Positions 2,559 through 27,062 of a stretch of 37,884 nucleotides of DNA are shown piece after piece. Position 1 is the first letter of the stretch. The number at the start of each line of letters is the position of its first letter. The notes under the pieces were generated by a model. It made no database searches. It was not told where the DNA came from and saw nothing but the letters and a program-made list of their open reading frames with translations. Both the position numbers and the translations under genes were made by a program. The stretch is from Planctomycetia bacterium (GTDB lineage: Bacteria; Planctomycetota; Phycisphaerae; Phycisphaerales; SM1A02): the NCBI GenBank assembly GCA_005799495.1, contig SYGP01000020.1, forward strand, positions 1 to 37,884, given 5' to 3'.

Positions 2559-4589
2559 TCAGACGGCGCGCTGCGCTGCGCGGGTCGGCTTGGGAGCCAG
2601 CGCCGTTCGCGTGGCCCGCCGAATCTCCTCGGCGTCGGCATACTCCTCGCCGAAGCGAACCAGCCGCAGGCTGTTGGCGATCACGAAGATGTACGCGGTG
2701 GCTTGATAGAAGGGGGTCACCCAGATGTCGATCTGCCCCGTGGCAGCGAGCGCCAGGCCGATGGTCGCGAGCAGCAGGCTGATGCCGATGTTCGCGGCGA
2801 TGATTCCCTTCGCCTTCGATGCGAGTTCGACGAGGAAGGGAATGTGGCGCAAATCCTCGTTCATGAGTGCCACGCCGGCGCTGTTCGTTGCGATGTCCGA
2901 TCCCGAGAGTCCCATCGCCACGCCGACATCGGCGCTTGCGAGGATTGGGCCGTCGTTGATGCCATCGCCCACCACGAGCACGCGATTGCCTCGGCGGATG
3001 AGGTACTTCAGTTCCTCGTGCTTCTCCTCGGGGAGGCACTCCGCCTCGATCGTGTCGACGCCCACCGACTCGCCCACACGCTGCGCGACACCGAGGCGGT
3101 CGCCGGTGAAGATGCAGACGCGTCGCACGCCGAGCTGGCGCAGTCGGCTGACCGCCTCCGCCGCGTGCTGTCGAAGCTTGTCTTCCAGACCGACGGCGCC
3201 GAGGTAACGCCCATCCTTCATGACATGCACACTCGACATGCCTTCCGTCCGCTCCTCGACCTGCTTGATCTGCGCGACCGCACCGGGATTCAGTTCGGCA
3301 ATCCACTGGGAACGACCCGCATGCAGCACCGTGCCCGCCTGAGTTCGGGCGAGCACGCCACGCCCATGGATCTCCTCGTACGAATCGATCGCCGATGGAA
3401 CGATGCGTGCACGCTGCGCGGTTTCGAGGATGCTGCGAGCCAGCGGATGATTGCTCGACTGCTCGCAGTCCGCCGCGGCTTGCAGCAGCGCTGCGCCCTC
3501 GGCGCCCTCCGCAGGTGCGAGCCGACTGACGGAGAAGCGCCCCGTGGTGAGCGTGCCCGTCTTGTCCATCACCACCGTATCGATGCGCGCGGCCTCCTCG
3601 AGCGTTCGGGTCTGCTTGATCATGATCCCCAGCCGCGCTGCGGCGGCAAAGGCTGCCACCATCGCCGTTGGGTGTGAGATGAGCAGCGCCCCCGGGCAGG
3701 TCACCACAAGCACGGTGATCGCGCGCACGGCCGCTTGGCTTCGCACATCCGCCGATGCGCTCTTGGTCGTGAAGAACCAGACGAGGCCCGCCACCATCAG
3801 CACGACGGGCACGTAGTACGCAGCGAGCCGTTCGATCATCTCCTGTCGATCGCTGCGGGAGTTTTCCGCTTCACGAATGAGCGATTCCACCTTGCCGATG
3901 GTCGTCTCGCCGGCGACGGCAGTCACCTCGATGTCGATCTGTCCCGTGAGGTTCGTCGTGCCTGCATAGACCTCGCTCCCCGCTTGCGCTTCGATGGGAA
4001 CCGCTTCGCCCGTCAGCGACGCCTGATTGATGCTCGTGGTCCCGCGCCGGACACGCCCATCGGCGGGCAGATTTTCGCCGGGTCGCACCCGCACCAACTG
4101 ACCGACCGCGAGGGCGCTTCGGCGCACTTCGCGTTCAGTGCCATCGCTTTCGACGATGCGCGCGACATCGGGCGTCAGTTCCAGCAGTTCGCGGATCGCG
4201 CGCTGCGCTCCCCATGCGGTGCGTGAGAGGATGAGTTCCGAGAGCCACAGGAAAAACGCAAGGAATCCAGCGGCGAGATAGAGCTGGTTCGCCATGGCGG
4301 CGAGCACAGCCAGCGTCGCGAGCGAGTCGCTCGAGGGGCGCCCAGCGCGAAGCTCGGCGATGGCGCCCGACGCCATGGGAATGGTCAGGATGATCGCACC
4401 GAGGACGGCAGGAATCTGCGCAACGGCGGGCTCGATCCCGAGGAACGACTGCCCCACGGCGGCCACAAGTAGGAGGACACCGCCACACAAGGCGACGAAC
4501 AGCCGCCGCTCCAGCCGTGCGCCACCCTGCGATGCGTCGTCGTCGCGTGTGCGTTCAGCCCACTGCGCTCGCGTGTCGATGGTGCTCAC
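2559..4589 (-). CDS. P1B-type heavy-metal-transporting ATPase with CPG metal site
   Basis: Inner-membrane ATP-driven metal efflux pump. The family signatures are all visible: actuator TGEA, phosphorylation site DKTGTLT with Asp342, the P1B-specific SSNHPLA, and hinge GDGINDGPILASADVGVAMG. The membrane metal-site motif is TCPGALLIS with Cys298, that is CPG instead of the usual CPC, CPH or SPC. No N-terminal HMA or CxxC domain is present; the chain begins with a short hydrophilic stretch and then membrane helices. The GTG start at 4589 is preferred because GAAGGAG lies 7 bases upstream. An ATG at 4691 would add 34 unlikely residues and run into the gpsA promoter. With this start the protein has 676 residues. 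Zn/Cd/Pb-type or Cu export cannot be decided by eye. Confidence 0.9.
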   Translation of the reverse strand: MSTIDTRAQWAERTRDDDASQGGARLERRLFVALCGGVLLLVAAVGQSFLGIEPAVAQIPAVLGAIILTIPMASGAIAELRAGRPSSDSLATLAVLAAMANQLYLAAGFLAFFLWLSELILSRTAWGAQRAIRELLELTPDVARIVESDGTEREVRRSALAVGQLVRVRPGENLPADGRVRRGTTSINQASLTGEAVPIEAQAGSEVYAGTTNLTGQIDIEVTAVAGETTIGKVESLIREAENSRSDRQEMIERLAAYYVPVVLMVAGLVWFFTTKSASADVRSQAAVRAITVLVVTCPGALLISHPTAMVAAFAAAARLGIMIKQTRTLEEAARIDTVVMDKTGTLTTGRFSVSRLAPAEGAEGAALLQAAADCEQSSNHPLARSILETAQRARIVPSAIDSYEEIHGRGVLARTQAGTVLHAGRSQWIAELNPGAVAQIKQVEERTEGMSSVHVMKDGRYLGAVGLEDKLRQHAAEAVSRLRQLGVRRVCIFTGDRLGVAQRVGESVGVDTIEAECLPEEKHEELKYLIRRGNRVLVVGDGINDGPILASADVGVAMGLSGSDIATNSAGVALMNEDLRHIPFLVELASKAKGIIAANIGISLLLATIGLALAATGQIDIWVTPFYQATAYIFVIANSLRLVRFGEEYADAEEIRRATRTALAPKPTRAAQRAV

Positions 4590-4596
4590 GTGGACG

Positions 4597-4603
4597 CTCC
4601 TTC
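4597..4603 (-). promoter_or_regulatory. Ribosome-binding site that decides the ATPase GTG start
   Basis: GAAGGAG on the minus strand, 7 bases before the GTG at 4589. It supports this start over the longer ATG form. Confidence 0.7.
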
Positions 4604-4681
4604 GGCAAGCAGGACGGGGCGGTTCGTTCGCAGCGTGTCCATTGGGCAAAGGGTAGCACCCACCGCTTCGCTGCGGCGTGG

Positions 4682-4687
4682 TAGCGT
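4682..4687 (+). promoter_or_regulatory. -10-like hexamer directly before gpsA
   Basis: TAGCGT, 6 bases before the gpsA ATG, with no Shine-Dalgarno between and no recognisable -35. It would place the transcription start at or beside the ATG (leaderless). Confidence 0.4.
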
Positions 4688-4693
4688 GCAAGC

Positions 4694-5686
4694 ATGCCCG
4701 AAGAGATTGCCGTCATTGGCTGCGGTCAGTTCGGCAGTGTTGTCGCGAGTCATTGCGCTCGAGCGGGTCATTCGGTGCGTCTTTGGGGGCGGAACGATGC
4801 GGAGGTCGGGGGGTTGCTGCAGAGTCGTCGCAGCACGCGCGTCGAGGGTTTGGTGATCCCTGATTCGGTTGTCATCACGACGGATGGGTTGGCTGCGATG
4901 AACGGCACCAGCATGGTCATCACGGCGATCCCATCGCAGTACGCGCGGAATGTGTGGCAGGTTCTTCGCTCTGCATGCCCGAAGGATGTCACGGTGGTGA
5001 GTCTGGCCAAGGGATTCGAGGTGGAGACGCTGAAGCGCCCGAGCGAGGTGCTGCGGGAACTTGGGGTTGGCGGCGAAGTCGTGACGCTTTCCGGACCTTC
5101 GGTCGCGAGCGAGGTTGCTCTCGGTCTCCCGACCGCCCTGGTGGTGGCGGGCGAAGCCGTTGCGGCACGGCAGGTGCAGCAGGCTCTCTCCACCTCCGCA
5201 TGGCGCATCTATCTCTCCGCGGATCAGGTCGGCGTGGAGGCAGCCGGTGCACTCAAGAATGTCATCGCCCTTGCGGCGGGCATGGTCGATGGAATGCAGC
5301 TGGGCATCAATGCGAAGGCAACGCTCCTCGCGCGCGGGACGGCGGAGATGGCGCGGCTTGGCATGGCGCTCGGTGGCAGTCGAGAGACATTCTTCGGCGT
5401 CGCGGGAGTGGGCGATCTCGCCACGACCTGCTTCAGCGCCGATGGGCGCAATCGAACGCTCGGCGAACGCCTCGGACGTGGCGAAGACTTCGCATCCGCG
5501 CTTCGGTCGATGCACGCGGTGGTGGAAGGAGTCGACACCTGCCGAGCAGTTGTCGAACTGGCTCGACGGCTGGGCGTCGAGGTGCCCATCGCATCCGCGG
5601 TGAACGCAGTGCTCTTTGGTGGCGTGACGCCGCGCCACGCGCTGCAGGAACTGATGCGGCGGACGAGCGGCGAAGAGCGACTCTGA
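4694..5686 (+). CDS. gpsA: NAD(P)+-dependent glycerol-3-phosphate dehydrogenase
   Basis: Cytosolic enzyme that reduces dihydroxyacetone phosphate to sn-glycerol-3-phosphate, the backbone for phospholipids. The 330-residue protein has the normal length. An N-terminal Rossmann fold AVIGCGQFGSVVA (about residues 6-18) is followed by LWGRND, the central VSLAKGFE and LSGPSVASEVALGLPTALVV, then the catalytic-lysine and substrate region AAGALKNVIALAAGMVDG and GVGDLATTCFS. The gene is divergent from the metal ATPase, with a 104-base shared upstream region, and converges on the pseudouridine synthase gene with a 22-base gap. The start is set by the position of the Rossmann fold; no Shine-Dalgarno is seen. 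Confidence 0.97.
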   Translation: MPEEIAVIGCGQFGSVVASHCARAGHSVRLWGRNDAEVGGLLQSRRSTRVEGLVIPDSVVITTDGLAAMNGTSMVITAIPSQYARNVWQVLRSACPKDVTVVSLAKGFEVETLKRPSEVLRELGVGGEVVTLSGPSVASEVALGLPTALVVAGEAVAARQVQQALSTSAWRIYLSADQVGVEAAGALKNVIALAAGMVDGMQLGINAKATLLARGTAEMARLGMALGGSRETFFGVAGVGDLATTCFSADGRNRTLGERLGRGEDFASALRSMHAVVEGVDTCRAVVELARRLGVEVPIASAVNAVLFGGVTPRHALQELMRRTSGEERL

Positions 5687-5708
5687 TCGCGGGCGAGTCG
5701 CACCCGTT

Positions 5709-6893
5709 TCAGGGCTTTGGGTCGCCGTTCTCGCGCGGGACGGAAACCTTGTTTCCGCCCGCATCCACCGATCGGATGAATCGGTGAGTCCGCAGGAGAT
5801 CCACGGTTCGTTTGAGATCGCTGCGCAGGGGTGCCTCGAACACCATCGGTTCGTTGGTGATCGGATGGCGAAAGCCGAGCATCGCAGCATGCAGCCCTTG
5901 CCGCATCAGCAGAGGCGCATCGGTGTCGCCTCCGACATCGGACTCGCGCAGGTGCGTTCCGCCGTACATGTCGTCGCCCGCAAGCGGATGGCCGAGATGG
6001 GACATGTGAACGCGAATCTGATGCGTGCGCCCCGTGCGGAGTTCCAACTCGACGAGCGCGAAGCCCTGAAAGAGTTCGAGCGTTCGGTAGAAGGTCTGCG
6101 AAGGCTTGCCGCTGTCGTCGAAACGCACCGCATACCGCTCGCGAATCGATGGATGCTTGCCGAGCGGCAGATCGATGAGATCGGCCAGTGGATCGGGGTG
6201 ACCCTCGACGAGTGCGATGTAACGCTTCTGCGTGGTGCGCCGCTCGAACTGCTTGCCAAGCCTCCAGTGCGCGGTCTCCGTCTTGGCGGCGACCATGACG
6301 CCACTGGTGTGCTTGTCGAGTCGGTGCACCACTCCGGGGCGCGCGTGTTCACGGCCGACCTCCGAGAGTTTGCCGCTCGAGCGGTGCAGGAAATGCCATG
6401 CGAGCCCGTTGATCAGCGTTCCGGACTTGTGACTGCGTGCGGGATGCACGATCAATCCCGGCTGCTTGTTGATGACGATCAGTTCGTCATCCTCGAAGAG
6501 GATGTCCAGAGGGATCTCTTCGGGTGCGATCTCGTTGCTCGGTGGTGGCGGGAGGGTCGCAACGATGATGTCGCCATGCTGCAGTCGCGTACTCGACTTC
6601 GGCAGGCGCCCGTTGACCGTCACGGCCTCCTCATCGATCAGCCGCTGCAATGCCGTTCGGCTCAGGAACGGCACTCGGTCCACGAGATAGCGGTCGAGGC
6701 GCTTCGAGAGGTGGTGCTGGATGCAGAATGTGACGCGGACAGGCTGGTCATCGTCGCTCGCGGCAGAGCGCTCGTAGACCGCGAGCAATGCATCGCGGTC
6801 GACCGTGCCCGCCGCGGTGAAGAGTTGCATCGCATCGGCATCGTGCGATCGCTCCTCCGAGTCCCCCTTGGGCGCTTCCTCGGGAACGCTCAC
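5709..6893 (-). CDS. rluD: RluA/RluD-family 23S rRNA pseudouridine synthase
   Basis: Isomerises uridines in rRNA. An N-terminal low-complexity stretch of about 55 residues is followed by an S4 RNA-binding domain (about residues 58-110; KRLDRYLVDRV, then ALQRLIDEEAVTVNG). The catalytic domain carries VVHRLDKHTSGVMV with catalytic Asp193, then QKRYIALVEGHP and the C-terminal RTGRTHQIRVHMSHLGHPLAGDDMYGG in two parts. At 394 residues it is somewhat longer than E. coli RluD (326) because of the N-terminal extension and a tail. It starts 6 bases after the membrane protein gene at 6900-7766 and is very likely cotranscribed with it. RluD is the best fit by domain content, but RluA-family paralogues cannot be told apart by eye. 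Confidence 0.88.
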   Translation of the reverse strand: MSVPEEAPKGDSEERSHDADAMQLFTAAGTVDRDALLAVYERSAASDDDQPVRVTFCIQHHLSKRLDRYLVDRVPFLSRTALQRLIDEEAVTVNGRLPKSSTRLQHGDIIVATLPPPPSNEIAPEEIPLDILFEDDELIVINKQPGLIVHPARSHKSGTLINGLAWHFLHRSSGKLSEVGREHARPGVVHRLDKHTSGVMVAAKTETAHWRLGKQFERRTTQKRYIALVEGHPDPLADLIDLPLGKHPSIRERYAVRFDDSGKPSQTFYRTLELFQGFALVELELRTGRTHQIRVHMSHLGHPLAGDDMYGGTHLRESDVGGDTDAPLLMRQGLHAAMLGFRHPITNEPMVFEAPLRSDLKRTVDLLRTHRFIRSVDAGGNKVSVPRENGDPKP

Positions 6894-6899
6894 GGAGTC

Positions 6900-7766
6900 T
6901 CAGGGCTTTGGAGCATCGCCACCGGGCGCTGCGGGTGCCGGGGGAGCCGCAGGATTCGCGGGCGCCGCTGGCGTGATCGGTTGATCCGACGCGGGGTTCA
7001 TCGCTCCCCCTTGGAGACCGCCAATCAGCGCGCGCATCGCTTCCTCATCGGTGACCGAAGCGCCCGTCGGCAGGTTGAAGCGCGTGCCATCGGGCAGCAC
7101 AGCCTGCGGCATCGGTGCATCCGGAATCTGATAGGGCGACGACACCAACGCGATCGTCTCGATCCGCGCCTTCGCTTGCTGGGAGAGCCATGGCATGCTC
7201 TGCGAGGTTCTCGTCTCGATGCGCTCGAGCGAGGACTTCGCAATATCCACTTCACCGCGCGATTCGGCAACCGCCGCAAGGCCGAACAGCGCCGCAACTT
7301 CAAAGGCGACATCATTCGGGTCATTCGACGACTCGGCACGCGCGAGCACTTCGCCGTACAGGGTTCGCGCCTCGAGAAGCCACTCCCTGCGCAGTTCAGG
7401 TGTGACGGCGGCATCTGCGGCGCTCGGCTCACGGTCGAACCGCTGTCCGCTCACGACGCTTTGCAGATGGCGATCCGCGGCTGTCAGCAGCGCAAAGGAC
7501 GCTACGCCATCCACATCCGCATGCTTGGACGCAACATCACGGAGCGTGGCGGGGATGTCTGCATCGGAGAGTTCGCTCCACGCCGCATCACGCGCCTGGC
7601 CCTGCTTGTTCTTCCACCAGTTCCAACCCATGGCGAGCGTGAGCACCACGAGGACTGCGAGAAGCCAGTTCGGGCCGCTGTTCTTCAGCCAGAACAGGAA
7701 GTCATCGTTGATCCGACTCTCCGTGAGGTCGGACTGTTGCACATTGGCGAGCCGCTTGCGATCCAT
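6900..7766 (-). CDS. Membrane-anchored protein of unknown function
   Basis: Not recognised as a named family. The 288-residue chain has a hydrophilic N-terminus (about 32 residues), one transmembrane helix (WLLAVLVVLTLAMGW, about residues 34-48), then a mostly alpha-helical soluble region to about residue 225. It ends in a Pro/Ala-rich tail (AAPANPAAPPAPAAPGG). The layout recalls YfgM/TPR-type anchored proteins, but no clear TPR repeats are visible. The ATG at 7766 is chosen because it precedes MDRKRLANV and leaves a divergent promoter space with the HAD gene; the reading frame stays open upstream to 8372, antisense to the HAD gene. It is the first gene of a two-gene unit with rluD. Confidence 0.7.
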   Translation of the reverse strand: MDRKRLANVQQSDLTESRINDDFLFWLKNSGPNWLLAVLVVLTLAMGWNWWKNKQGQARDAAWSELSDADIPATLRDVASKHADVDGVASFALLTAADRHLQSVVSGQRFDREPSAADAAVTPELRREWLLEARTLYGEVLARAESSNDPNDVAFEVAALFGLAAVAESRGEVDIAKSSLERIETRTSQSMPWLSQQAKARIETIALVSSPYQIPDAPMPQAVLPDGTRFNLPTGASVTDEEAMRALIGGLQGGAMNPASDQPITPAAPANPAAPPAPAAPGGDAPKP

Positions 7767-7776
7767 ACGTCGCGAA

Positions 7777-7786
7777 AGAGTAGCAT
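7777..7786. promoter_or_regulatory. Overlapping divergent -10-like hexamers
   Basis: The ten bases AGAGTAGCAT contain TACTCT on the minus strand (10 bases before the ATG at 7766) and TAGCAT on the plus strand (13 bases before the ATG at 7800). The whole intergenic space is 33 bases, so the two promoters must overlap. Confidence 0.35.
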
Positions 7787-7799
7787 TTTGTCGGTTTCC

Positions 7800-8675
7800 A
7801 TGCCCGCACGAATGTTGGTGACCGATCTCGATGGCACGCTGCTCGATAGCGAGGGGCGTGTGTCGCAAGCCAACCGAGACGCGATCGCCCGTGCGCGCGA
7901 TGCGGGGATGGAAGTCATCTTTGCCACAGGCCGATCGTGGCTGGAGTGTCGATCGATCGCGCAAGCGGTGCTCGGTCAGGGGCTGATCATCACGGCCGGC
8001 GGTGCGGCACTGCATGACATTGCGACGGGCCGCTGCGAGGACTGCATCACGATTTCGACCGAGTTGGTGCAGCACTGCACCGAGAGCCTGCTGCTGCACG
8101 GTCACCTCGCGCATCTGCTGAAGGATGCATCGAGGAGTGGATACGACTATCTGTTGGTGGGGAACCGCGAACTGGATGCGGCGAGTCGCTGGTGGTTTGA
8201 GATTCACCCCGTGGCGACTCGCTCGCTTGCGGCGCTTCCGAGCGATGCCCAGGAGCGGCAGATCCACCTGCAGCATGTCTTGCGCGTGGGCACCGTCGCC
8301 CATCAGGCGGAACTGGGCGATGTCACCGCTGCGCTGCTGCGCGAAGTGCCTGAACACCTGTCCATCAAGCACTGGCCCGCCCTTGTGTCAGCGGGGAAGC
8401 AGGGAGCGGATACGCATCTGCTGGAGATCTTCGATGCCGCCGTCGACAAGTGGACGATGGTGCAGCGGCTCTGCCGTACGCACGGCATCGACGAGCGTTC
8501 GGTCGCAACCGTGGGCGATGGACTGAACGACATCGGCATGCTTCGAAACTCGCGACTGTCCTTTGCCGTGTCGAATGCCATGCCCGATGTTGCATTGCAC
8601 GCGGCCGAGCGCGCACCCAGCAACGATGCGCATGCGATCGCGTGGGTGGTGGATCGCCTCCTCCGGGGCGCCTGA
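7800..8675 (+). CDS. HAD-superfamily (Cof-type, subclass IIB) phosphatase
   Basis: Cytosolic phosphatase, probably acting on sugar phosphates or similar small substrates. The four HAD motifs are visible: motif I VTDLDGTLLDSEG (nucleophile Asp about residue 9), motif II FATGRSW, motif III the Lys in DKWTMVQRL, and motif IV VGDGLNDIGML. The 291-residue length and the cap position between motifs II and III fit the Cof/YidA type. The ATG at 7800 gives MPARMLVTDLDG; a second ATG at 7812 is possible. The frame is open far upstream (to 5784), but that part is antisense to two real genes and is not coding. The substrate is not predictable. Confidence 0.9.
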   Translation: MPARMLVTDLDGTLLDSEGRVSQANRDAIARARDAGMEVIFATGRSWLECRSIAQAVLGQGLIITAGGAALHDIATGRCEDCITISTELVQHCTESLLLHGHLAHLLKDASRSGYDYLLVGNRELDAASRWWFEIHPVATRSLAALPSDAQERQIHLQHVLRVGTVAHQAELGDVTAALLREVPEHLSIKHWPALVSAGKQGADTHLLEIFDAAVDKWTMVQRLCRTHGIDERSVATVGDGLNDIGMLRNSRLSFAVSNAMPDVALHAAERAPSNDAHAIAWVVDRLLRGA

Positions 8676-8705: not shown

Positions 8706-11700
8706 ATGGACGCGGTGGACGACGCGCGAGCTCCGATGGAGGCGACTGCGCAGGACCGCACGCGCGGCTCTCGCTCGCCGCTCGATCGTGTCGACGGGGC
8801 TGCACTCTTTTCGGCCGCGCAGGCGCTGCTGAAAGGACTCCTCGAAGCGGAACTCGATGTGCATCGGCTGCTCGTGGTTCGGCATCCGCCCTTTGAAGCG
8901 GTTCTTGCCGCAGCAGAGGAAGCGGGTGCTGCAGAGGTGTTGGAGCGAAATGCCCTTCAGGTGACAAGCGTGGCCAGCGGGGCACGTGCACTCGAACTTG
9001 CGGCACAAGAGGCTGCGCGCGGACGACGGAGTGTGGTGCTCGTTCCCAATGAGGAGCTCGATGGGCTCGTGGGTCAGATGGAGGAGATCGGGCGCCTGCC
9101 ATTGAGTGAGGGTGGCGGCATCGTGCTCGTCCTCGAGGACCATCCTGTCGCGGTGCCCACCACCTGTCCGCGGCGCGTCTGCCGCCGTGCGGGACTGACG
9201 GCGATTGAGGCTGCGGATGTGGATGGGATCCGCGGCGGCTGCGATGTCGCCCTTCGCCTGACTCGTGCCACACGGCGCCCAGCGGTGTTGGTGGTGCACA
9301 TCTCGCTGCTGCGTTCAGCGGCAACGCTGAGCGTCCTGCCCAACCGCCATGTGGCGCGAGTGGATCACGATGCATGGCTGCGCCGTCGGCGCCTTGCACG
9401 AACGGGTGAGTCCGCGGACCCGCTGCGCATCATCCGCGTGCTGGAACTGAACAGCGTCGAGCACTTGCCCAGTCCGGGTGAACACGAGCAGTATGGATTC
9501 ATTGCGATCGGCCCCGCACTCGTTTCCGTGCGTCACATGCTCGATGAACTTGGCATGAGCGCGCGTGTTCCCGTCCTTGGGATTGGCGCGCCAGAGCCGC
9601 TCGATGAGTCTGCGGTGGGGCGGATATTGGAACGCTGCCGGAATGTCATTGTGCTCGAAGCGCGCCCCGGGTCGGTGGCACCGCGGATTGTGGCAGCGGC
9701 GGAGTCGTTGCGGGCATCCGGCGGCGATGTCGCGCGCGTCTGGTGGAGTCGCCTTCCGCCTGCTGCGGGAGATGTCGAGCCGCTGGCCGTCAATGACGCG
9801 CTGGTCACGAGTCTGCTGACGCGTCGCGTGATCCGTTTGCTGCATGAGGTGCGCCCAGGCCTCCAGTTGGAGGAAAAACTCGCGCGTATCCCCGCTTCGA
9901 TTGCGACCATGGAGGTCCGACGGCGCGGGGAGGACATCGGTGTGGCGTCAGCCGAACGCCTGATTGCCTTGGCGATCCATGATGCCGATGCGTTGCTGGC
10001 GGAGCGGACGCAGGAGGGTGCGTACGCCTGCGCGCTCGTGACCGGGCGCCAGGGCCTGCGTGCGGGAGCCATCCCGTGCGTCGTGGAGACGTGGCATGTG
10101 CAGCGCTTTGTCCGCGACGGCATCCTTGCCGTTCGGCAGGCCGCGGTGGAACGCCAGCGTCGTGTGATGGTGGTACTGGACTTCGGCGCCGCCGAGCGGG
10201 TGGACGTGGAACGACTCGCGCGCGCAGCGGCGGGTGCCGAGGGGGAGCCGCGTCTTCGAGTCGTTGCCCTCGATGTGAACGACAGCGAAACCCTTCGCGA
10301 TGCGCTGGTGGCCGCGGCGGAGGTGGATGCGCTGACGCTGGTCATTGCGCGGGATGGTCCACCGCCGAGGCGTGATGTCTCCGCGCTCGAGCGGTCCGCG
10401 TGCGAGGTGGACCGCGATGGGTTCCTGCGCTTTCAGCGGTTCATCCTTCCTGCGGACCATGCGTGCGAACTGCGCGATCCAGGACTTGCCGCACAGATCG
10501 CGCGCGGACTGCTGCGCGGGAGCGATCCGCTGCGTCCTGAGCCGCTCGTCGATCGGTCGTTGGTGCCTGGCGCCCGAGGCGTCTTCGTTCGACTGGAGCC
10601 GTTGCTGGAGCAAGTCGAGATCATCCGAACGCGTCCGCCGCCAGGACTCGATGCCCTTCGCACCGTGGAGCGTTTGCCCGTACCGCAGCCCATCCATGGC
10701 GATCAGGGATTGTGGCGCGCACACATCGGCGGATTCCGAGGTGATGCCCCGGGAATCATCGGCAGCGTTCTGTCGGAAGCGGGTCGCCACATGGGATTTT
10801 CCGTGTCCTGGACGCACCGCAGCACGCCGCTTGGACCAGGCAGACGGGCATGGTCGCAAGTGGTGTTCACGCAAGGTGAAGCGCCCACCGCCGAGGGCGC
10901 CGAGGCGTCACCACAAATGCGCGGACAACGGTTCACGACGCAGATTCCCTACGGTGAGGCGGATCTGGTGCTCGGGATCGATCCGCTCGAGACCATTCGG
11001 GCGCTCGCGACCGACCAGCGTCTGCGGGTTGCCGACCCTCAGCGCACGGCCGTGGTTGCCAACAGCGGGACGCTCGACGATCAGATTTCTGAAGAGTGTC
11101 GGCGCACCGCGGCACGGCTCGCATCGACGGCGGAGGCGACATGCAATCAGCGCTGGACGGAGTTGCTCGATCTTGCCGAGTTGGCTCGTGCGACTTTTCT
11201 CACCGATCGACCCGTGGATGTGATCGCGCTGGGGGTCGCATTCCAGCGCGGCTGGATCCCGCTGTCCGTCGAAGCCTTTGAGTACGGCATCGCGCAGGTG
11301 GAGGCATCGGGCATTGCGTCGGTCCGTGAGGGCGTTCAGCTCGGTCGGCGCATCGCCGCGGGCCTGCAGAAAGTCCGGAGCCAGCCGCGTGCGTCGGCAA
11401 CACTCAGTCCCGTGCACGAGTCCGATGGGTCCGGGCAGCGTGCGTTGCTTCGGCTCGTGCGCGTCGCGACAGCGGCGCGGCAGATCGGGAATCGTCGGCA
11501 GCGCACGCAGGCGCGGCGCATGCGACGACGCGTGGGTGCTTCCTTGCAGCAACTCTCGGGATTGCTGTCCACGCGTCATGGGCATGAGGCACTGCAAGAC
11601 TTCGCCATGGCGATGCGGCGATGCGAGATGTGGGGAGGGCTGGACTATGCGCTTCGCTACGCCGAGATCATCTCGGAACTGTGCCGGGCCGATCCGACGC

Positions 11701-12191
11701 TCGAGTTGCCGAGGTTGGCGATCCTGCCCCTTGCGGAGGTGTTCCTGATTCGGGACCTCTGGTACATCGGAACGCTGACCACGAGCGTGGATGAGAGCCA
11801 TAGGATCCGTGAGACGCTTGGCGTGAGGCTCGCGCGAGGCGACGAGATTCGGCGCCGTTATCTGCATCGACTGGAAGCACGCGTGCGGGAACATCAATGG
11901 GTCGTGGAGTTTCGGTCGAGCGACTGGCCTGACCGCATCCTGCAGTTCACGCGTCGCTTCGTGCCGCTGCAGGTTCGTGGTTCCGTGCAAAGCCGTGCGC
12001 TCCGCGAGACCATCGTCGAACTGCTGATGCGCGCTGCCCGCGAGCCTGATCGAAATGCCGCATGGGTTGCCTGGGCTCGACGCATGCACGACGGCGCGCT
12101 CGCAGGCTCCGTGCGATCGATGACCGATGCCGAGGTTCGTCAGCTTGCGGTCGAGAGCGGGGCAGTCGTGAATCCGCTCAGCGCTGGGTAG
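8706..12191 (+). CDS. Indolepyruvate:ferredoxin oxidoreductase homologue with degenerate active site
   Basis: A 1161-residue chain in the order of the long fused indolepyruvate/2-oxoacid:ferredoxin oxidoreductases. Residues about 34-230 resemble the alpha pyrimidine-binding domain (VLVPNEELDGLVG, then ATRRPAVLVVHIS). Residues about 262-310 resemble domain II (YGFIAIGPALVSV). Residues about 380-600 occupy the TPP domain. Residues about 668-785 resemble the gamma domain (HIGGFRGDAPGIIGSVLSEAG, then EADLVLGIDPLETIRAL). Residues after about 835 (VIALGVAFQRGWIPLSVEAF) match the C-terminal domain. By eye the catalytic Glu region is SVASGARALE (residues 88-97). The TPP/Mg GDS...N pair is replaced by His464-Val465-Gln466 and Phe493, and the ferredoxin cysteines are mostly gone. 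The family call is an inference from these blocks; activity is doubtful. Its end overlaps rlmN by 14 bases. Confidence 0.7.
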   Translation: MDAVDDARAPMEATAQDRTRGSRSPLDRVDGAALFSAAQALLKGLLEAELDVHRLLVVRHPPFEAVLAAAEEAGAAEVLERNALQVTSVASGARALELAAQEAARGRRSVVLVPNEELDGLVGQMEEIGRLPLSEGGGIVLVLEDHPVAVPTTCPRRVCRRAGLTAIEAADVDGIRGGCDVALRLTRATRRPAVLVVHISLLRSAATLSVLPNRHVARVDHDAWLRRRRLARTGESADPLRIIRVLELNSVEHLPSPGEHEQYGFIAIGPALVSVRHMLDELGMSARVPVLGIGAPEPLDESAVGRILERCRNVIVLEARPGSVAPRIVAAAESLRASGGDVARVWWSRLPPAAGDVEPLAVNDALVTSLLTRRVIRLLHEVRPGLQLEEKLARIPASIATMEVRRRGEDIGVASAERLIALAIHDADALLAERTQEGAYACALVTGRQGLRAGAIPCVVETWHVQRFVRDGILAVRQAAVERQRRVMVVLDFGAAERVDVERLARAAAGAEGEPRLRVVALDVNDSETLRDALVAAAEVDALTLVIARDGPPPRRDVSALERSACEVDRDGFLRFQRFILPADHACELRDPGLAAQIARGLLRGSDPLRPEPLVDRSLVPGARGVFVRLEPLLEQVEIIRTRPPPGLDALRTVERLPVPQPIHGDQGLWRAHIGGFRGDAPGIIGSVLSEAGRHMGFSVSWTHRSTPLGPGRRAWSQVVFTQGEAPTAEGAEASPQMRGQRFTTQIPYGEADLVLGIDPLETIRALATDQRLRVADPQRTAVVANSGTLDDQISEECRRTAARLASTAEATCNQRWTELLDLAELARATFLTDRPVDVIALGVAFQRGWIPLSVEAFEYGIAQVEASGIASVREGVQLGRRIAAGLQKVRSQPRASATLSPVHESDGSGQRALLRLVRVATAARQIGNRRQRTQARRMRRRVGASLQQLSGLLSTRHGHEALQDFAMAMRRCEMWGGLDYALRYAEIISELCRADPTLELPRLAILPLAEVFLIRDLWYIGTLTTSVDESHRIRETLGVRLARGDEIRRRYLHRLEARVREHQWVVEFRSSDWPDRILQFTRRFVPLQVRGSVQSRALRETIVELLMRAAREPDRNAAWVAWARRMHDGALAGSVRSMTDAEVRQLAVESGAVVNPLSAG

Positions 12192-13284
12192 CGCTCGCGT
12201 GTTCATGCCGCAACTGGCCGCAGGCAGCGGCGATGTCCCGTCCGCGGCTGGCACGGATGTGCGTGTTGACGCCACGCTCGCGCAGGATCTCCTGGAAGCG
12301 AAGCACGCCATCGGAGTTGGGACGCTGGTAGGGCATCCCCCGAACCTCGTTGTAGCGGATCAGGTTGACGTTGGCGTGGATGCGCCGCGCATGCTCGGAC
12401 AATTCTTCGGCATGTTCGGCTCTGTCATTCACGCCGCCGAGCAGGATGTACTCGAGCGTGATCTCCCGACCCGTGCGCCGGAACCACTCATCGCATGCGT
12501 CGAGGAGTTCCTCGATCGTGCTGAAGTCTGCCCAGGGGATGATGTTGCGGCGTATCTCATCGTTGGGCGCATGCAGGCTCAGTGCGAGCGTCACCGGCAG
12601 TTCGAAGTCGCAGAAGCGGCGGATCGCCGTCGGCAATCCGACCGTCGAGACCGTGATCCGGCGCGCACTGATGCCGAAGCCCCAGTCGGCATGCAGGGTT
12701 CGGATGGCATCCGACACCGCGCTCAGATTCGCCAGCGGTTCACCCATGCCCATGAAAACCACATGCGAGATGCGTTCCACCGCATCGAGTGTGGAGAGAT
12801 GAAAGACCTGCTCGATGATCTGTCCCGCGGTCAGGTTGCCCTCGAGCCCGCCGATTCCCGAGGCGCAGAAGCGGCACCCGACTGGGCAACCGAGTTGACT
12901 CGAAATGCACGCGGTCCGGCGGGGATCGGCGGGAATCATCACACACTCCGTCTGCCGACCCGATGCGACGGGCGTTGCGCCGAGCACAGGCAACAGCGTT
13001 GGAGTCGCTTCCGAGGACCCGCGTTCCCATGCCATCAACAACTTCTGCGTTCCATCGGAAGCCATTCGGTGGTCGATGCGGCGCGCTGTCGTGAATCGCA
13101 TCGATTGTGCAAGCAGGTCGCGGTTGCGCTTCGACAGATTGGTCATCCCCATCGGATCCGCACACGCCTTCCGATAGACCCAGTCCAGGACTTGGTCGGC
13201 AGTGTGGCGCTGCATCCCGCGCTCGGTGCACCACTCGCGAAGCGCGTCTCGCTGCAGAGCGAAGAGGTGCGGTGCATCGGTCAC
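12178..13284 (-). CDS. rlmN: Dual-specificity 23S rRNA/tRNA adenine-C2 methyltransferase (radical SAM)
   Basis: Methylates C2 of A2503 in 23S rRNA and, in many bacteria, A37 of some tRNAs. The radical-SAM cluster motif is CX3CX2C at Cys133, Cys137 and Cys140 (GCPVGCRFCASGIGGLEGNL). Other family blocks are VVFMGMGEPLAN, RRITVSTVGLP, LALSLHAPNDEIRRNIIP, LEYILLGGVND and the C-terminal RASRGRDIAAACGQL with the methyl-carrying Cys. Length is 368 residues. The GTG at 13284 overlaps the ispH stop (GTGA), a coupling arrangement, and fits the family N-terminus; an upstream ATG at 13353 lies inside ispH. The 3' end overlaps the convergent oxidoreductase-like gene by 14 bases. Confidence 0.96.
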   Translation of the reverse strand: MTDAPHLFALQRDALREWCTERGMQRHTADQVLDWVYRKACADPMGMTNLSKRNRDLLAQSMRFTTARRIDHRMASDGTQKLLMAWERGSSEATPTLLPVLGATPVASGRQTECVMIPADPRRTACISSQLGCPVGCRFCASGIGGLEGNLTAGQIIEQVFHLSTLDAVERISHVVFMGMGEPLANLSAVSDAIRTLHADWGFGISARRITVSTVGLPTAIRRFCDFELPVTLALSLHAPNDEIRRNIIPWADFSTIEELLDACDEWFRRTGREITLEYILLGGVNDRAEHAEELSEHARRIHANVNLIRYNEVRGMPYQRPNSDGVLRFQEILRERGVNTHIRASRGRDIAAACGQLRHEHASATQR

Positions 13285-14351
13285 GGTGCGACCGCCGCGC
13301 CCTGCACCGTGAGGTCCACGATTCGGAATGGGATGTTGTGTGCGCTGAACCACTCACGCAGTTGATTCCCTTCGTCACCGCGGACGATGCGTCGTCCCTC
13401 TGGATCGACGCCGCGCTCACGCATCAGCGACTTCAGGCTGCCCGGCAGCCCGAACTCGACTTCCTCATGGCGCACATCATGCTGTTCGACCTCGGCACCG
13501 AACGTGCGCACGAGCTCTTCGATGAGATCGTGCACCAGATCCTCGGGGGCGCTTGCGCCCGCCGTCACGAGCAGTGTCTGCACCCCATCGAACCACTCAC
13601 GCTTCAACTCGCTGCGGTCATCGATCAGCCGTGCCGGGGTGCCCATGTTCATCGCGATCTCCGTCAGGCGAACGGAGTTGGATGAGTTCGAGCTCCCCAC
13701 CACGAGCACCAGGTCACACTGGGGGGCGATGGCACGCACGGCAGTTTGTCGGTTCGTTGTCGCGTAGCAAATGTCGCTCGCAGGCGGCTCCTTGATCTGC
13801 GGGAATGCGCGCTTGAGCGCGTCGATGATGACGCCTGCATCATCGAGCGACAGGGTCGTCTGGGTCAGGTAAATGAGCTTCTCGGGATCGTTCACCTTCA
13901 GGGATGGAATGTCGGCCGGACTCTCCACCACTTGCATCACTTCGGGAGCCTCGCCGAGGGTTCCAACGACCTCCTGATGATGTCGATGACCGACAAGCAG
14001 GATCTGAAATCCTTTGCGCGCGTAGCGGATGGCTTCGGCATGAACCTTCGTCACCAGCGGACAGGTTGCATCGACTGCCATGAGTCGCTTCGACTGCGCC
14101 AGTTGTCGCAGGGCAGGACTCACGCCGTGAGCGCTGAAGACCACGATGGAACCGTCGGGCACCTCATCGACCGATTCCACGAAGCGCACGCCACGCCGCT
14201 GGAATCGTTGCACGACATGGCGGTTGTGCACGATTTCGTGGTACACGAAAATCGGCTCATCCGGGCATATCTCGAGGAGTTGATCGACGACATCGATCGC
14301 CATGTAAACGCCCGCACAGAAGCCGCGTGGATTCGCAAGGATGATCTTCAT
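13281..14351 (-). CDS. ispH: 4-hydroxy-3-methylbut-2-enyl diphosphate reductase
   Basis: Last enzyme of the MEP pathway, a [4Fe-4S] protein that produces IPP and DMAPP. The cluster cysteines are Cys12 (NPRGFCAGV), the Cys in VDATCPLVTKVH and the Cys in SDICYATTNRQ. Active-site blocks HEIVHNRHVV, FSAHGVSP, HHQEVVGTLGE and VVGSSNSSNS are all present. The 356 residues exceed the usual ~315; about 45 residues after the normal end (after EEVEFGLPGSLK) form an unusual tail. The ATG at 14351 gives the canonical MKIILANPRGFCAG. A TATGAT box lies 9 bases upstream. The gene is cotranscribed with rlmN (overlapping stop/start) and divergent from hpnC across 55 bases, so isoprenoid precursor supply sits beside squalene synthesis. 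Confidence 0.97.
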   Translation of the reverse strand: MKIILANPRGFCAGVYMAIDVVDQLLEICPDEPIFVYHEIVHNRHVVQRFQRRGVRFVESVDEVPDGSIVVFSAHGVSPALRQLAQSKRLMAVDATCPLVTKVHAEAIRYARKGFQILLVGHRHHQEVVGTLGEAPEVMQVVESPADIPSLKVNDPEKLIYLTQTTLSLDDAGVIIDALKRAFPQIKEPPASDICYATTNRQTAVRAIAPQCDLVLVVGSSNSSNSVRLTEIAMNMGTPARLIDDRSELKREWFDGVQTLLVTAGASAPEDLVHDLIEELVRTFGAEVEQHDVRHEEVEFGLPGSLKSLMRERGVDPEGRRIVRGDEGNQLREWFSAHNIPFRIVDLTVQGAAVAP

Positions 14352-14360
14352 CTGAGTCGG

Positions 14361-14366
14361 ATCATA
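14361..14366 (-). promoter_or_regulatory. -10 hexamer before ispH
   Basis: TATGAT on the minus strand, 9 bases before the ispH ATG. It matches TATAAT at 5 of 6 bases. No Shine-Dalgarno and no -35 are visible. Confidence 0.5.
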
Positions 14367-14391
14367 GCCATGCCTGCGCGAAACTCCGCGG

Positions 14392-14397
14392 TAGCCT
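14392..14397 (+). promoter_or_regulatory. -10-like hexamer before hpnC
   Basis: TAGCCT, 9 bases before the hpnC ATG. It is divergent from the ispH element 26 bases away within the same 55-base spacer. Confidence 0.4.
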
Positions 14398-14406
14398 TGG
14401 ATCGGT

Positions 14407-15387
14407 ATGGGAGCTCCCAAAGTCGACCGCACGCTCGAACTCGGGCGATACGGGCCCGAGTTGGACTGCACATGCACGCTGACTGAGGCGCAAGCGTGGT
14501 GCATGCGTCTCGCGCGCGGACATGGCGAGAACTTCAGCGTGCTGAGCGGATTCGTGCCGAGCGCACTCCGCGACGACTTCGCTGCGGTGTACGCGTATTG
14601 CCGCTGCGCCGATGACCTTGGCGATGAGTGCGGATCGCCCGAACGGGCAAGCGCCCTGCTTGCGTGGTGGCGCCGAGGCACGGAAGCGATGGGAAGCGGG
14701 CGTTCATTCCACCCTGTCTTCACGGCGCTCGCGCCGGTGGTGGCGAGGCATGGGATGCCGCTGAAGCCGTTTCTCGATCTCCTTGCAGCCTTTGAAATGG
14801 ACCAGCATGTCACGCGGTACGCAACATGGGATGAGTTGCTGGGGTACTGTCGGCTCAGTGCAGATCCTGTTGGACGGCTCGTGCTCATGCTGCTCGATGA
14901 GCCACGCGACGAGGCCGCGCTCGCGGCGAGCGACGCCATCTGCACGGGACTCCAACTGGTGAATCACTGGCAGGATGTGCGGCGCGATCTCCTCGAGCGC
15001 GGACGCATCTATCTGCCACAGGAGTCCTGGCAGGGGGAGATCTTTGACGAGCGGCTCTCCTGGACCTGTCACCGTGGGTTCGCGCCGGATCGGGACTTTC
15101 TTGAGGAGTACCGTGCAACGATTCGTTCCCTCGCCGAGCGAACCTGGCCGCTCTTCGCTGCGGGCGGCGAACTGCTCGAGCGACTCCATCCGAAACATCG
15201 ACCTTTGGTGTGGTTGTTTCGGGAGGGTGGGATGCACACGCTCCGGTTGATCGAGTCTTGGAACTACGAGACCTGCCTTGCGCGCCCCACGTTGACATCA
15301 TTCACCAAGATTCGACTGCTGCTGCAGGCGCGCTGGAGTACCGTGCGCGCCATCCGATCTGCGCGGCGGGAGGCGCGTGCAGCATGA
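14407..15387 (+). CDS. hpnC: Hydroxysqualene synthase HpnC
   Basis: Squalene/phytoene-synthase fold. In the HpnCDE route HpnC converts presqualene diphosphate to hydroxysqualene. The first Asp-rich motif is YAYCRCADDLGDECG (about residues 60-74), preceded by ENFSVLSGFVP, which is typical of HpnC. The second region LVNHWQDVRRDLLERGRIYLP carries the other metal-binding Asp pair. Length 326 residues is normal. It is the first gene of hpnC-hpnD-hpnE-queG, its stop overlapping the hpnD start (ATGA at 15384-15387). HpnC is told from HpnD by gene order and the ENF...CRCADDLGDE form. Confidence 0.92.
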   Translation: MGAPKVDRTLELGRYGPELDCTCTLTEAQAWCMRLARGHGENFSVLSGFVPSALRDDFAAVYAYCRCADDLGDECGSPERASALLAWWRRGTEAMGSGRSFHPVFTALAPVVARHGMPLKPFLDLLAAFEMDQHVTRYATWDELLGYCRLSADPVGRLVLMLLDEPRDEAALAASDAICTGLQLVNHWQDVRRDLLERGRIYLPQESWQGEIFDERLSWTCHRGFAPDRDFLEEYRATIRSLAERTWPLFAAGGELLERLHPKHRPLVWLFREGGMHTLRLIESWNYETCLARPTLTSFTKIRLLLQARWSTVRAIRSARREARAA

Positions 15388-16271
15388 GTACGACTTCGGA
15401 GGCACTGCTGCTCCAGGAGGATCTCCGCGATGCGGTCGAATACTGCCGTGATGTGACGCGCGCACGCGCTGCGAACTTCTACTGGGGGCTCCGCCTCACC
15501 CCGGAGCCGCAGCGCTCGGCGATGTACACGATCTATGCGTGGATGCGTGAAGCAGACGACATCGTGGATGGAACATCGGTCGACGGTGATGCCGCATCCA
15601 CCATCCAGGCATTCCGTGCGAACACGCGCCTTGCACTGCGCGGCACGGTGGCGGAGCCGACATCGCTGTGGCGTGCGTTCGCGGCGGTGGCGCGTGCGTA
15701 CCCGCTCGATCTGAACGACTTTGAGGCGATGATCGACGGCCAGATCGCTGATCTCCGCCCGCAACGGCTGCACCAAGAAGAGGAACTCCGCCAGTACTGC
15801 GAACAGGTCGCAAGTTCCGTCGGGCGAGTGTGCGTGCGTGTGTGGGGATACCAATGCGTGGATGCCCTTGCGCTCGCATCGGAGCGGGGCGTTGCATTCC
15901 AGATGGTGAACGTGATCCGTGATGTTGCGGAGGATGCGCGGATGGGGCGCGTGTACATCCCCCAGGCGCGTTTCGATCGGGCGGGCATCGATCTCGAGGC
16001 ACTGCTCCAGTGGAGAGATCCGCCGCGATGCATGGCGCTGCTCGAGGGCATGATCGATGCCGCGCGTGATCGATTCGAGGTGAGCGCACCGCTCGAGTCC
16101 ATGATCGAGCCAGCCTGTCGTCCGACGCTGCGTGGGCTGACGGGCATGTACCGCGCGCTGCTCGAGCGATTGGCGGCAGACCCCGAGCGTGTCGTGCGCC
16201 AGCGCGTCTCCGTGCCGACGCTGCAGAAGGCGCTTGTCATCGTGCGTGCGCGGCTTGCGGGCGAGCGCTGA
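15384..16271 (+). CDS. hpnD: Presqualene diphosphate synthase HpnD
   Basis: Condenses two farnesyl diphosphates to presqualene diphosphate, the first step of the HpnCDE squalene route. It is a squalene/phytoene-synthase fold of 295 residues. The first Asp-rich motif is YAWMREADDIVDG (about residues 52-64), and the second is VNVIRDVAEDARMGRVYIP (about residues 172-190) with the DxxED and GRxYIP elements. The ATG at 15384 overlaps the hpnC stop; longer frames reach back into hpnC and are not needed. Its stop overlaps the hpnE start by one base (TGATG). The tight overlaps suggest balanced synthesis of the three enzymes. Confidence 0.94.
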   Translation: MSTTSEALLLQEDLRDAVEYCRDVTRARAANFYWGLRLTPEPQRSAMYTIYAWMREADDIVDGTSVDGDAASTIQAFRANTRLALRGTVAEPTSLWRAFAAVARAYPLDLNDFEAMIDGQIADLRPQRLHQEEELRQYCEQVASSVGRVCVRVWGYQCVDALALASERGVAFQMVNVIRDVAEDARMGRVYIPQARFDRAGIDLEALLQWRDPPRCMALLEGMIDAARDRFEVSAPLESMIEPACRPTLRGLTGMYRALLERLAADPERVVRQRVSVPTLQKALVIVRARLAGER

Positions 16272-17677
16272 TGGGACCGCCCATCGTCATCGTGGGCGGA
16301 GGCCTTGCCGGACTCGCCGCCGCCGTGCGCCTGACAGAGGCGGGGCGCGAAGTCGTCCTGATCGAGTCCAAGCGAAAACTGGGCGGGCGCGCCACCAGTT
16401 TCGTCGACCCCCGCAGCGGCGAGACGCTCGACAACTGCCAGCATGTCCTCATGGGAAGTTGCACGAATCTGCTCGATCTGTACGGTCGGCTCGGCGTGCT
16501 GGACCTGATCGAGTGGCACCGCACCATTTGGTGGGCGAATCCACCGGGCGATCCGGATGAAATGACCCCGTCGTCCCTCCCCGCACCGGCGCACTTCGCG
16601 GGCAGTTTCCTTCGCATGCGGTTCCTCGGGCTCGAGGACAAGCGCGCAGTTGCCCGTGCCATGTGGCGTCTGATTCGTCTCGGCCGAGAGGGCCGTGAAC
16701 GCTGGAAGGGGCAGTCTTTCGGGAGGTTCCTCGAGGAGACTCGGCAGACGGAACGGGCGCGGTCGCACTTTTGGGAGCCCGTCATCATCAGCGCGTGCAA
16801 CATGCCGTGTGCGCGGACGGACGCGTCGCTGGCGATGTATGTGTTTCAAGCTGGGTTCCTCCAGGATTCGTGGAGCCCGGTGATGGGGCTTTCGATGCGG
16901 CCTCTGGTGGAGCTCTACGATCCTGCGCAGCAGTTCATCGAGTCGCGTGGGGGAGCGATGCGACTTGGCGTCAGCGCCATGTCCCTCTCATTCGACGGCA
17001 CTCGCGTGCGCGGTGTGGTGACCGATGAGGGCATGGTGGAAGCGTCGGCGGTGATCACTGCCGTTCCTCCCGATCGGCTTGCGAAGCTCTGCTCTGGGAC
17101 ACTGACGAGTGCGGATGTGCGACTTGGGCGACTGGATGAGATCGCCTTCAGCCCAATCCTGGGTGTGCATCTCGCGTTTGACGCACCGATCATGGAGACG
17201 CCCCATTTGGTATTGCCTGGCCGCGACACGCAGTGGCTGTTCCGTAAGGAACGCGATGCACAGGGACGCCATCGTGTGCATGCGGTGATCAGTGCCGCCG
17301 ATTCCTGGATGGATTTGGACGAGCGGGCGATCGTCGATCGGGTGATGCACGATGTGCACTGGGCGCTGCCCCGTGCGCGGGGACTGCAGCCTGTTGCGTT
17401 TCGGGCAGTGAAGGAGAAGCGTGCGACCTTTGCAGGTGTGCCGGGGATCGATGCGCTCAGGCCGAAGGCAAAGCGCGACGGCGTGCGCGGCGGCGTCGAG
17501 AATCTGTTCCTCGCTGGTGACTGGTGCGCGACGGGTTGGCCCGCAACCATGGAGGGGGCGGTTCGCAGTGGCTATCTCGCGTCCGCGGCGGTGTGCGGCA
17601 GGTCCGGCGATCGATGCGAGGATGCGCTGGTGCCCGATGTTCCTGCCGCGCCTCTCTCGCGTTGGCTGGGGCTGTAG
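16271..17677 (+). CDS. hpnE: Hydroxysqualene dehydroxylase HpnE (FAD-dependent)
   Basis: Flavoprotein that removes the hydroxyl group of hydroxysqualene to give squalene. The N-terminal FAD-binding motif is VIVGGGLAGLAAAVRL (residues 5-20) followed by the Glu of VLIESK and the amine-oxidase-like KLGGRATSF. The C-terminal FAD block is FLAGDWCATGWPATMEGAVR (about residues 412-431). Length 468 residues fits the phytoene-desaturase-like amine oxidase family. The start overlaps the hpnD stop by one base. queG follows after 22 bases and has its own ribosome site. Confidence 0.93.
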   Translation: MGPPIVIVGGGLAGLAAAVRLTEAGREVVLIESKRKLGGRATSFVDPRSGETLDNCQHVLMGSCTNLLDLYGRLGVLDLIEWHRTIWWANPPGDPDEMTPSSLPAPAHFAGSFLRMRFLGLEDKRAVARAMWRLIRLGREGRERWKGQSFGRFLEETRQTERARSHFWEPVIISACNMPCARTDASLAMYVFQAGFLQDSWSPVMGLSMRPLVELYDPAQQFIESRGGAMRLGVSAMSLSFDGTRVRGVVTDEGMVEASAVITAVPPDRLAKLCSGTLTSADVRLGRLDEIAFSPILGVHLAFDAPIMETPHLVLPGRDTQWLFRKERDAQGRHRVHAVISAADSWMDLDERAIVDRVMHDVHWALPRARGLQPVAFRAVKEKRATFAGVPGIDALRPKAKRDGVRGGVENLFLAGDWCATGWPATMEGAVRSGYLASAAVCGRSGDRCEDALVPDVPAAPLSRWLGL

Positions 17678-17684
17678 GAGCAAC

Positions 17685-17690
17685 GAGGAG
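17685..17690 (+). promoter_or_regulatory. Ribosome-binding site that decides the queG GTG start
   Basis: GAGGAG, 9 bases before the GTG at 17700. It supports this start over ATG codons lying inside hpnE. Confidence 0.7.
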
Positions 17691-17699
17691 AAAAGCGCA

Positions 17700-20844: not shown

Positions 20845-20855
20845 GGAAGCCCGCA

Positions 20856-20861
20856 AGTGTA
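20856..20861 (-). promoter_or_regulatory. -10-like hexamer before the coiled-coil lipoprotein gene
   Basis: TACACT on the minus strand, 11 bases before the ATG at 20844, in the 29-base gap after the CX4CH gene. It may be an internal promoter of the operon. Confidence 0.3.
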
Positions 20862-20873
20862 CTTCCGCTCCCA

Positions 20874-27028: not shown

Positions 27029-27062
27029 CCCGTTTCGGTCCCGAACTGGGAATGGTCATTCG

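Follow-up and report, generated by a model that had tools for sequence, protein, structure and literature searches.

A full-length homologue of indolepyruvate:ferredoxin oxidoreductases without the catalytic residues, retained across a planctomycete family

The window analysed here is a stretch of 37,884 nucleotides (contig SYGP01000020.1) from a planctomycete genome of 2.36 Mb (G000, 97.8% complete). Its order is taken to be Phycisphaerales, and as a guess its family may be the freshwater CL500-3/Nemodlikiaceae group (PMC6461901). It encodes a protein of 1161 amino acids that is a full-length homologue of the long-form indolepyruvate:ferredoxin oxidoreductases (IOR) and displays none of their catalytic residues; it is called pseudo-IOR hereafter. 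Homology, loss of the catalytic residues and purifying selection give as strong a case as sequences allow for a pseudoenzyme with respect to the ancestral reaction. The protein is probably a fixed pseudoenzyme derived from a single-chain IOR; its present function, which we infer from what has been conserved, would be non-redox, in binding or as a scaffold, and centred on the gamma domain. A pseudoenzyme had already been proposed by an earlier sequence-only reading of the window, and the proposal stood: the predicted fold is kept, every tested catalytic feature is lost, the gene is under purifying selection, and a family-wide profile search found a match in 148 of the 153 family genomes. The structural or regulatory role suggested in that reading may apply, with a repurposed active site as the main alternative to it.

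Pfam alone would miss the homology of the window protein entirely. The sequence-only reading had suggested a Pfam or profile search as a check, and its outcome was divided, as Pfam itself returned no family at E<=1 for the 1161 residues while NCBIfam and profile-profile matches were significant. The NCBIfam model PRK13030 (NF009589, long IOR family) matched residues 744-919 (E 1.1e-12; the 46.6 bits are below the curated cut-off of 816 bits, which was reached in 0 of 61 genomes, even those with intact enzymes of the order), and IOR_alpha matched residues 246-321 (E 3.5e-4). The profile of the window family (31 sequences) was aligned by hhalign with eight catalytically intact relatives from the same order over 1077 columns (E 1.3e-106, probability 100). 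Such an intact long form is present in two other families of the order, f5 and f6, where it carries MGDGTFFHSG with the Asn, the catalytic Glu in NNEA, CPGCPH and the ferredoxin cysteines (families are coded f1 to f6, f1 being that of the window; g34 is a genus, and L and G numbers are codes as well). DUF6537 (PF20169) scored above cut-off in two relatives from the window family (G030 and G026). A PDB sequence search with the window protein gave chance matches alone (YscU-type, E 0.14-0.39), and one with the family profile gave two chains of thiamine diphosphate (ThDP) N-terminal domains at E 0.04. Judged from these alignments, the chain is a 2-oxoacid:ferredoxin oxidoreductase (OFOR) by descent, homologous along its length. 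The claim of a full-length homologue with the domain order kept was thus borne out by hhalign and by the OFOR-like predicted fold, and the domain assignment, made at first from remembered family sequences, proved correct by hhalign, NCBIfam and the DUF6537 of relatives.

Catalytic positions were read from 160 aligned long homologues, all distinct, of which 66 belong to the window family (one-frame match of at least 850 residues, duplicates removed; the shorter or split L086, L090, L093 and L208 were excluded). The catalytic Glu, the Gly-Asp pair and the Asn that hold Mg and thiamine pyrophosphate (TPP) were each kept in none of these 66 sequences; the loss, which the sequence-only reading had proposed to look for in orthologues, extends to the whole family set. 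Two further stripped groups were found in the same order, family f4 (six sequences) and genus g34 of f6 (four sequences). Outside the stripped groups, Glu was present in 83, Asp in 82 and Asn in 83 of 84 long homologues. The alignment confirmed the residues picked out by eye in the window protein, with Gly92 at the Glu column within ASGARALE (residues 90-97), and HVQ (residues 464-466) and Phe493 in place of the GDS...N pair. No GD[GSAV]-x22-30-N string was found anywhere in the window chain, so the refuting case of an intact pair and catalytic Glu elsewhere in it did not arise; strings of this kind occurred at other places in 12 of the 66 family sequences, never with Gly-Asp at the aligned columns.

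The window chain has 12 cysteines, eight of which precede residue 600 (154, 159, 179, 311, 442, 458, 566 and 587). The two isolated cysteines previously counted before residue 600 therefore hold for the former ferredoxin segment only, and not for that part of the chain overall. From 11 cysteine columns invariant in intact relatives, to which a role in cluster binding is assigned from the family, the window protein has lost ten and keeps one (C587). All 66 family sequences keep 0 or 1 of the 11, and the C587 column is Cys in 57 of them. In a structural description of the Sulfolobus OFOR, Gly-Asp-Gly and Asn bind Mg near the TPP pyrophosphate and a Glu activates TPP (PMC5020499). By its sequence, the window protein has none of the marks of an active OFOR, that is the Mg/TPP motif, the catalytic Glu and the [4Fe-4S] cysteines; since these are lost, the usual holding of TPP, decarboxylation of 2-oxoacids and passage of electrons would not be expected.

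The AlphaFold model, obtained with a family alignment of 26 sequences, had a predicted local distance difference test (pLDDT) score of 83.7 and a predicted template modelling (pTM) score of 0.80, and its fold was closest to 2-oxoacid:ferredoxin oxidoreductases, as the sequence-only reading would have it. Foldseek with the full model placed pyruvate:ferredoxin oxidoreductases (PFOR) nearest (E 8e-14). VIA-align matched it to the 2-oxoglutarate:ferredoxin oxidoreductase 6n2n_A (Z 28.6, 302 residues, root-mean-square deviation (rmsd) 3.4) and to the PFOR 7plm_A (Z 27.6, 492 residues, rmsd 4.2, model range 29-888), and the aligned length and range of the matches would fit domains I, II and III. 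Whole-model TM-scores were low (~0.3, rmsd ~20), as expected from the different domain order; single chains of PFOR have the TPP domain (domain VI) last. When residues 400-658 were modelled alone (pLDDT 78.0, pTM 0.68), the best Foldseek match was 5b48_B, the beta subunit of the Sulfolobus OFOR (E 6.6e-4, no other under 0.001), and the 50 VIA rows listed were all ThDP-dependent enzymes, at a moderate score (Z 8.9-10.1 over 109-137 residues). Judged from these models, domains I-II, VI and III still have the OFOR fold, domain VI at a Z of only about 10.

The frame is under purifying selection, as the suggested comparison of orthologues made clear. The ratio of nonsynonymous to synonymous changes (dN/dS, NG86) ranged from 0.066 to 0.106 in all nine pairs of close relatives, and it stayed at or below 0.126 when six parts of the chain were computed separately for four pairs. 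Among these four, the TPP part ranked highest twice (0.105 and 0.126); in the remaining two pairs it was close to the gamma part (0.095 and 0.096 vs 0.095 and 0.100). The 153 genomes of the family-wide search were at least 80% complete, and its profile also includes intact and other stripped forms; 102 of the 104 good genomes and all 41 genera had a match. With the window protein itself as query, 36 of the 37 family genomes searched gave a match, each with E no higher than 7e-133. Within the genus of the window no stop was found inside the match in any of 19 genomes. Some rows of the family-wide profile count (G033, G031, G022 and others) had one stop within the matched range, which we take for overrun at the range ends; the search with the window protein found none in the same three genes. 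The genomes are mostly metagenome bins. Homologue frames were broken in two at L050, L086 and L090, by an error or by a real split.

A decaying pseudogene or a chance open reading frame (ORF) would account for the loss of all tested catalytic residues, for the broken frames at the family loci L086 and L090, and for the presence of a long frame at all, as overlapping long ORFs are frequent in the GC-rich DNA of the window. A dN/dS of 0.07-0.11 means, however, that the gene is not a pseudogene, and the frames without internal stop in the genus and the profile matches throughout the family speak the same way. With ratios far below 1 and family-wide retention, we regard this explanation as refuted and give it next to no credence.

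Conservation was counted on 41 thinned family sequences with a threshold of at least 90%. The gamma part had 39 conserved positions out of 230, 25 of them the same as in intact enzymes, and the TPP part had the fewest (4 out of 185). At the same threshold, formerly conserved residues were replaced by new ones on the alpha/TPP side (E144 and E247 for Gly, E461 for Gln) and at R678 for Gly (former GVGGMG loop), R713 for Gly (within G712-R713), R828 for Glu, R835 for Leu and D838 for Asn. PFOR binds coenzyme A (CoA) through its gamma domain (domain III), and the CoA-bound PFOR 6ciq was among the structural matches of the model. The gamma domain would be the conserved core of the pseudo-IOR and, with the near-invariant new arginines R678 and R713, would most likely bind a phosphate-bearing small molecule (CoA, acyl-CoA or a nucleotide), while the emptied TPP cleft would probably be filled by the new near-invariant charged residues R94, E144 and E461. 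As a partner, the first candidate would be the HAD phosphatase, whose gene immediately precedes that of the pseudo-IOR and is probably co-transcribed with it. In 53 of the 63 distinct family loci whose upstream sequence is long enough, the HAD gene is the adjacent upstream neighbour and has the same orientation (distance taken from the start of homology; two loci with short upstream sequence were excluded).

Several points weigh against this reading. Three of the nine pairs had dS above 1, and their ratios are rough, the pair with a dS of 0.23 giving 0.078; the 148 profile matches include partial and a few weak ones (e.g., G521, E 1.3e-4), and residues were checked in part of them. The HAD gene is divergent in 3 of the 63 family loci and has no counterpart within 400 nt in 7. 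Gene order is conserved generally in the family, RlmN being convergent in 62 of the 67 loci that are long enough (counted without removing duplicates), so the adjacency of HAD gives little support to a functional link. No HAD neighbour was found in the six f4 loci, the four g34 loci or the 12 intact and half-altered loci, and both HAD and RlmN neighbours of the window family were absent from the loci of all other groups. The neighbours differ in the two sister lineages: f4 has Rho (6/6), and g34 has a fusion of E1, lipoyl domain and FabH (4/4). Finally, several of the near-invariant changed positions are charged, which would also suit a new active site.

The protein would then be an enzyme again, with a new active site without TPP on the old scaffold and a different reaction. 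Besides the eight replacements conserved at 90% or more, purifying selection along the whole chain, seemingly beyond the needs of a simple scaffold, would agree with such an enzyme. No known catalytic motif was seen, however, the TPP part that held the old active centre is the least conserved, and GC-rich genomes favour Arg, so the changes to Arg may be structural; we therefore find a new enzyme somewhat doubtful, and prefer the binding or scaffold protein. Much less credible is that the protein is still an oxidoreductase, relying on a partner protein for TPP chemistry and clusters, or binding TPP without the usual motif. Glyoxylate carboligase is said to be a ThDP enzyme that works without the canonical Glu, but the pseudo-IOR has lost the Mg/TPP Gly-Asp, the Asn and the cysteines too, and a PF01558 (POR) search gave no match in 19 genomes of the genus. 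For want of a PF01558 match, a role of the pseudo-IOR as inactive companion to a working OFOR is unlikely in the window genus and was found unsupported there. Elsewhere in the family, a PF01558 scan of 23 genomes gave one with a POR protein (G022), and the IOR profile has additional matches in G026 and G029; a role as inactive partner is possible there.

Half-altered homologues keeping all 11 cysteines were found at L203 (GDV, Asp for Asn), L204 (GA) and L209 (GQ). These are long-form IORs with altered TPP-site residues (L203 at 2844-6575), and may be surviving stages in the loss of the active site or else enzymes that bind metal in an unusual way. In a careful tree of 30 sequences, 20 rows of which have an odd letter make-up, f1, f4 and g34 formed one clade (99/97) with L203 as sister (93/96), and L204 and L209 stood elsewhere. 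A quick tree of 49 sequences supported the clade (98) and left the position of L203 unresolved. Approximately unbiased (AU) tests, selected once the tree was known, rejected tying any of the three lineages to intact enzymes apart from the other two (f1, p 0.0004; f4, p 0.0039; g34, p 0.03). These sequences suggest a single loss of the active site in the common ancestor of the three stripped lineages, and a stepwise one, because the likely sister L203 keeps all 11 cysteines but has Asp for Asn. Three independent losses, which would change the history only, could be hidden by the long branches of the stripped lineages (~1.0-1.2 changes per column), as these may attract each other; the lineages also have different neighbours, and L204 and L209 show that change at the TPP site can begin separately. 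Given the support for one clade with L203 beside it, and the outcome of the AU tests, we consider independent losses unlikely.

Among 246 genomes across the phylum, whole-profile matches were confined to this order except for G316, which belongs to a different family in the same class; the 62 matching genomes elsewhere in the sample had partial matches, many in frames sized like a separate alpha subunit. A tentative scenario, to which we would give somewhat less than even chances, is that an oxygen-sensitive thiamine and Fe-S enzyme was stripped once in an ancestor within the order, through intermediates that survive, and that its fold became a new, near-universal metabolite-handling protein (a sensor, a scaffold or a new enzyme on the gamma domain) whose partners in the genome then came to differ between lineages (HAD phosphatase, Rho-linked, and E1-lipoyl-FabH).

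In f4 (L044-L046, L048, L050 and L051), a conserved protein of ~250-350 amino acids without clear family lies upstream of the stripped gene and Rho downstream, in 6/6 loci. In g34, the fusion at L049:8177-11722 is a single chain uniting 2-oxoacid dehydrogenase E1 alpha and E1 beta with a lipoyl domain and with FabH (KAS III), and has the look of one protein that makes branched starters for fatty acids. Relatives of it adjoin L205 and L206, and another lies 1.2 kb from L207, so that all four g34 loci have one near the stripped IOR; domains were scanned in L049 only, the other three being cut by the locus end.

Table 1. Coordinates of the pseudo-IOR, its parts and changed sites, and neighbouring genes in the window
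Feature	Position	Strand	Remarks
Pseudo-IOR, full-length long-form IOR homologue without catalytic residues	8706..12191	+	ATG to TAG, 1161 aa
OFOR alpha part (domains I-II fold), residues 25-385	8778..9860	+	VIA-align Z 28.6 (6n2n_A, 302 residues), Z 28.4 (9bt4_A); borders approximate
Gly92 at catalytic Glu column	8979..8981	+	Alignment; Glu in 0/66 family sequences
TPP (PP) domain fold without TPP site, residues 400-571	9903..10418	+	Predicted from isolated-region model; borders approximate
His464-Val465 at Mg/TPP Gly-Asp columns	10095..10100	+	Alignment
Phe493 at Mg/TPP Asn column	10182..10184	+	Alignment
Former ferredoxin segment, residues 572-660	10419..10685	+	Cys587 is the sole conserved cysteine remaining
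Gamma (POR, domain III) part, residues 661-890	10686..11375	+	Richest in conserved positions; NCBIfam match 744-919
DUF6537-type C-terminal part, residues 891-1161	11376..12188	+	PF20169 in relatives; hhalign range to column 1128 of 1167
Cof-type HAD-IIB phosphatase gene	7812..8675	+	30 nt upstream of pseudo-IOR; DLDGT and GDGLND motifs kept
RlmN-like radical SAM protein	12178..13353	-	Convergent; 14 nt overlap with pseudo-IOR stop
IspH/LytB	13281-14945	-	Beyond RlmN-like gene

The start codon of the HAD gene (7812) is inferred, the open frame continuing upstream. That longer ORF (5784-8675) was rejected as a fusion protein: its family match is limited to the last ~290 residues (HAD), and its front overlies a pseudouridine synthase encoded on the opposite strand. 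The plus-strand ORF at 12199-13365 was likewise rejected as a gene, with no family match and a position over the minus-strand RlmN. Squalene genes (HpnC, an HpnD-like gene scoring under the HpnD cut-off, and HpnE) and QueG adjoin IspH at 14407-18788. Three long ORFs (728, 477 and 688 amino acids, the first two mutually overlapping) at 18862-22307 and 27059-29122 (minus) gave no Pfam match at E<=0.001, and 24062-27016 (minus) encodes a glutamate dehydrogenase-like protein of 985 amino acids with ELFV and large bacterial glutamate dehydrogenase matches.

If the reading is true, the pseudo-IOR would be the first full-length pseudoenzyme among ferredoxin-dependent 2-oxoacid oxidoreductases to our knowledge, and its retention extends through an entire family of bacteria. 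Homologues in one order that are intact, half-altered or fully stripped would form a natural series for the order in which a multi-cofactor enzyme loses its parts, and the same series allows asking what use a scaffold of 1160 residues has without its cofactor parts. Genes of this kind risk being labelled hypothetical or wrongly taken as a sign of ferredoxin-dependent metabolism. A literature search, with most subscription journals outside its scope, found no pseudoenzyme among these oxidoreductases and no paper on DUF6537 or on inactive thiamine-enzyme homologues; for IOR in Planctomycetes, it returned none on this subject by title.

Compared with known systems, the pseudo-IOR resembles the long single-chain IOR (NF009589/NF009588; TPP_enzyme_C, POR, DUF6537) in length, in the order I-II-VI-(ferredoxin)-III-DUF6537, in predicted fold and in the 25 of 39 conserved gamma positions that it shares, but is without the catalytic Glu, Gly-Asp...Asn, CPGC and the ferredoxin-type CxxCxxC. 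It has the predicted fold of domains I, II and III of PFOR (Moorella 6cin/6ciq, Desulfovibrio 1b0p/7plm; Z 25-28 over ~490-500 residues), whereas PFOR binds cofactors and is 11-14% identical. The stripped homologues of f4 and g34 have lost the same Glu, Gly-Asp, Asn and cysteines (one f4 residue is kept) and belong to the same clade, but show 21-22% identity to the window protein and have other neighbours (Rho, and the E1-lipoyl-FabH fusion). Known pseudoenzymes are mostly kinases, phosphatases and proteases, and the pseudo-IOR is like pseudoenzymes generally in that catalytic residues were lost while the predicted fold and the selection on it were kept.

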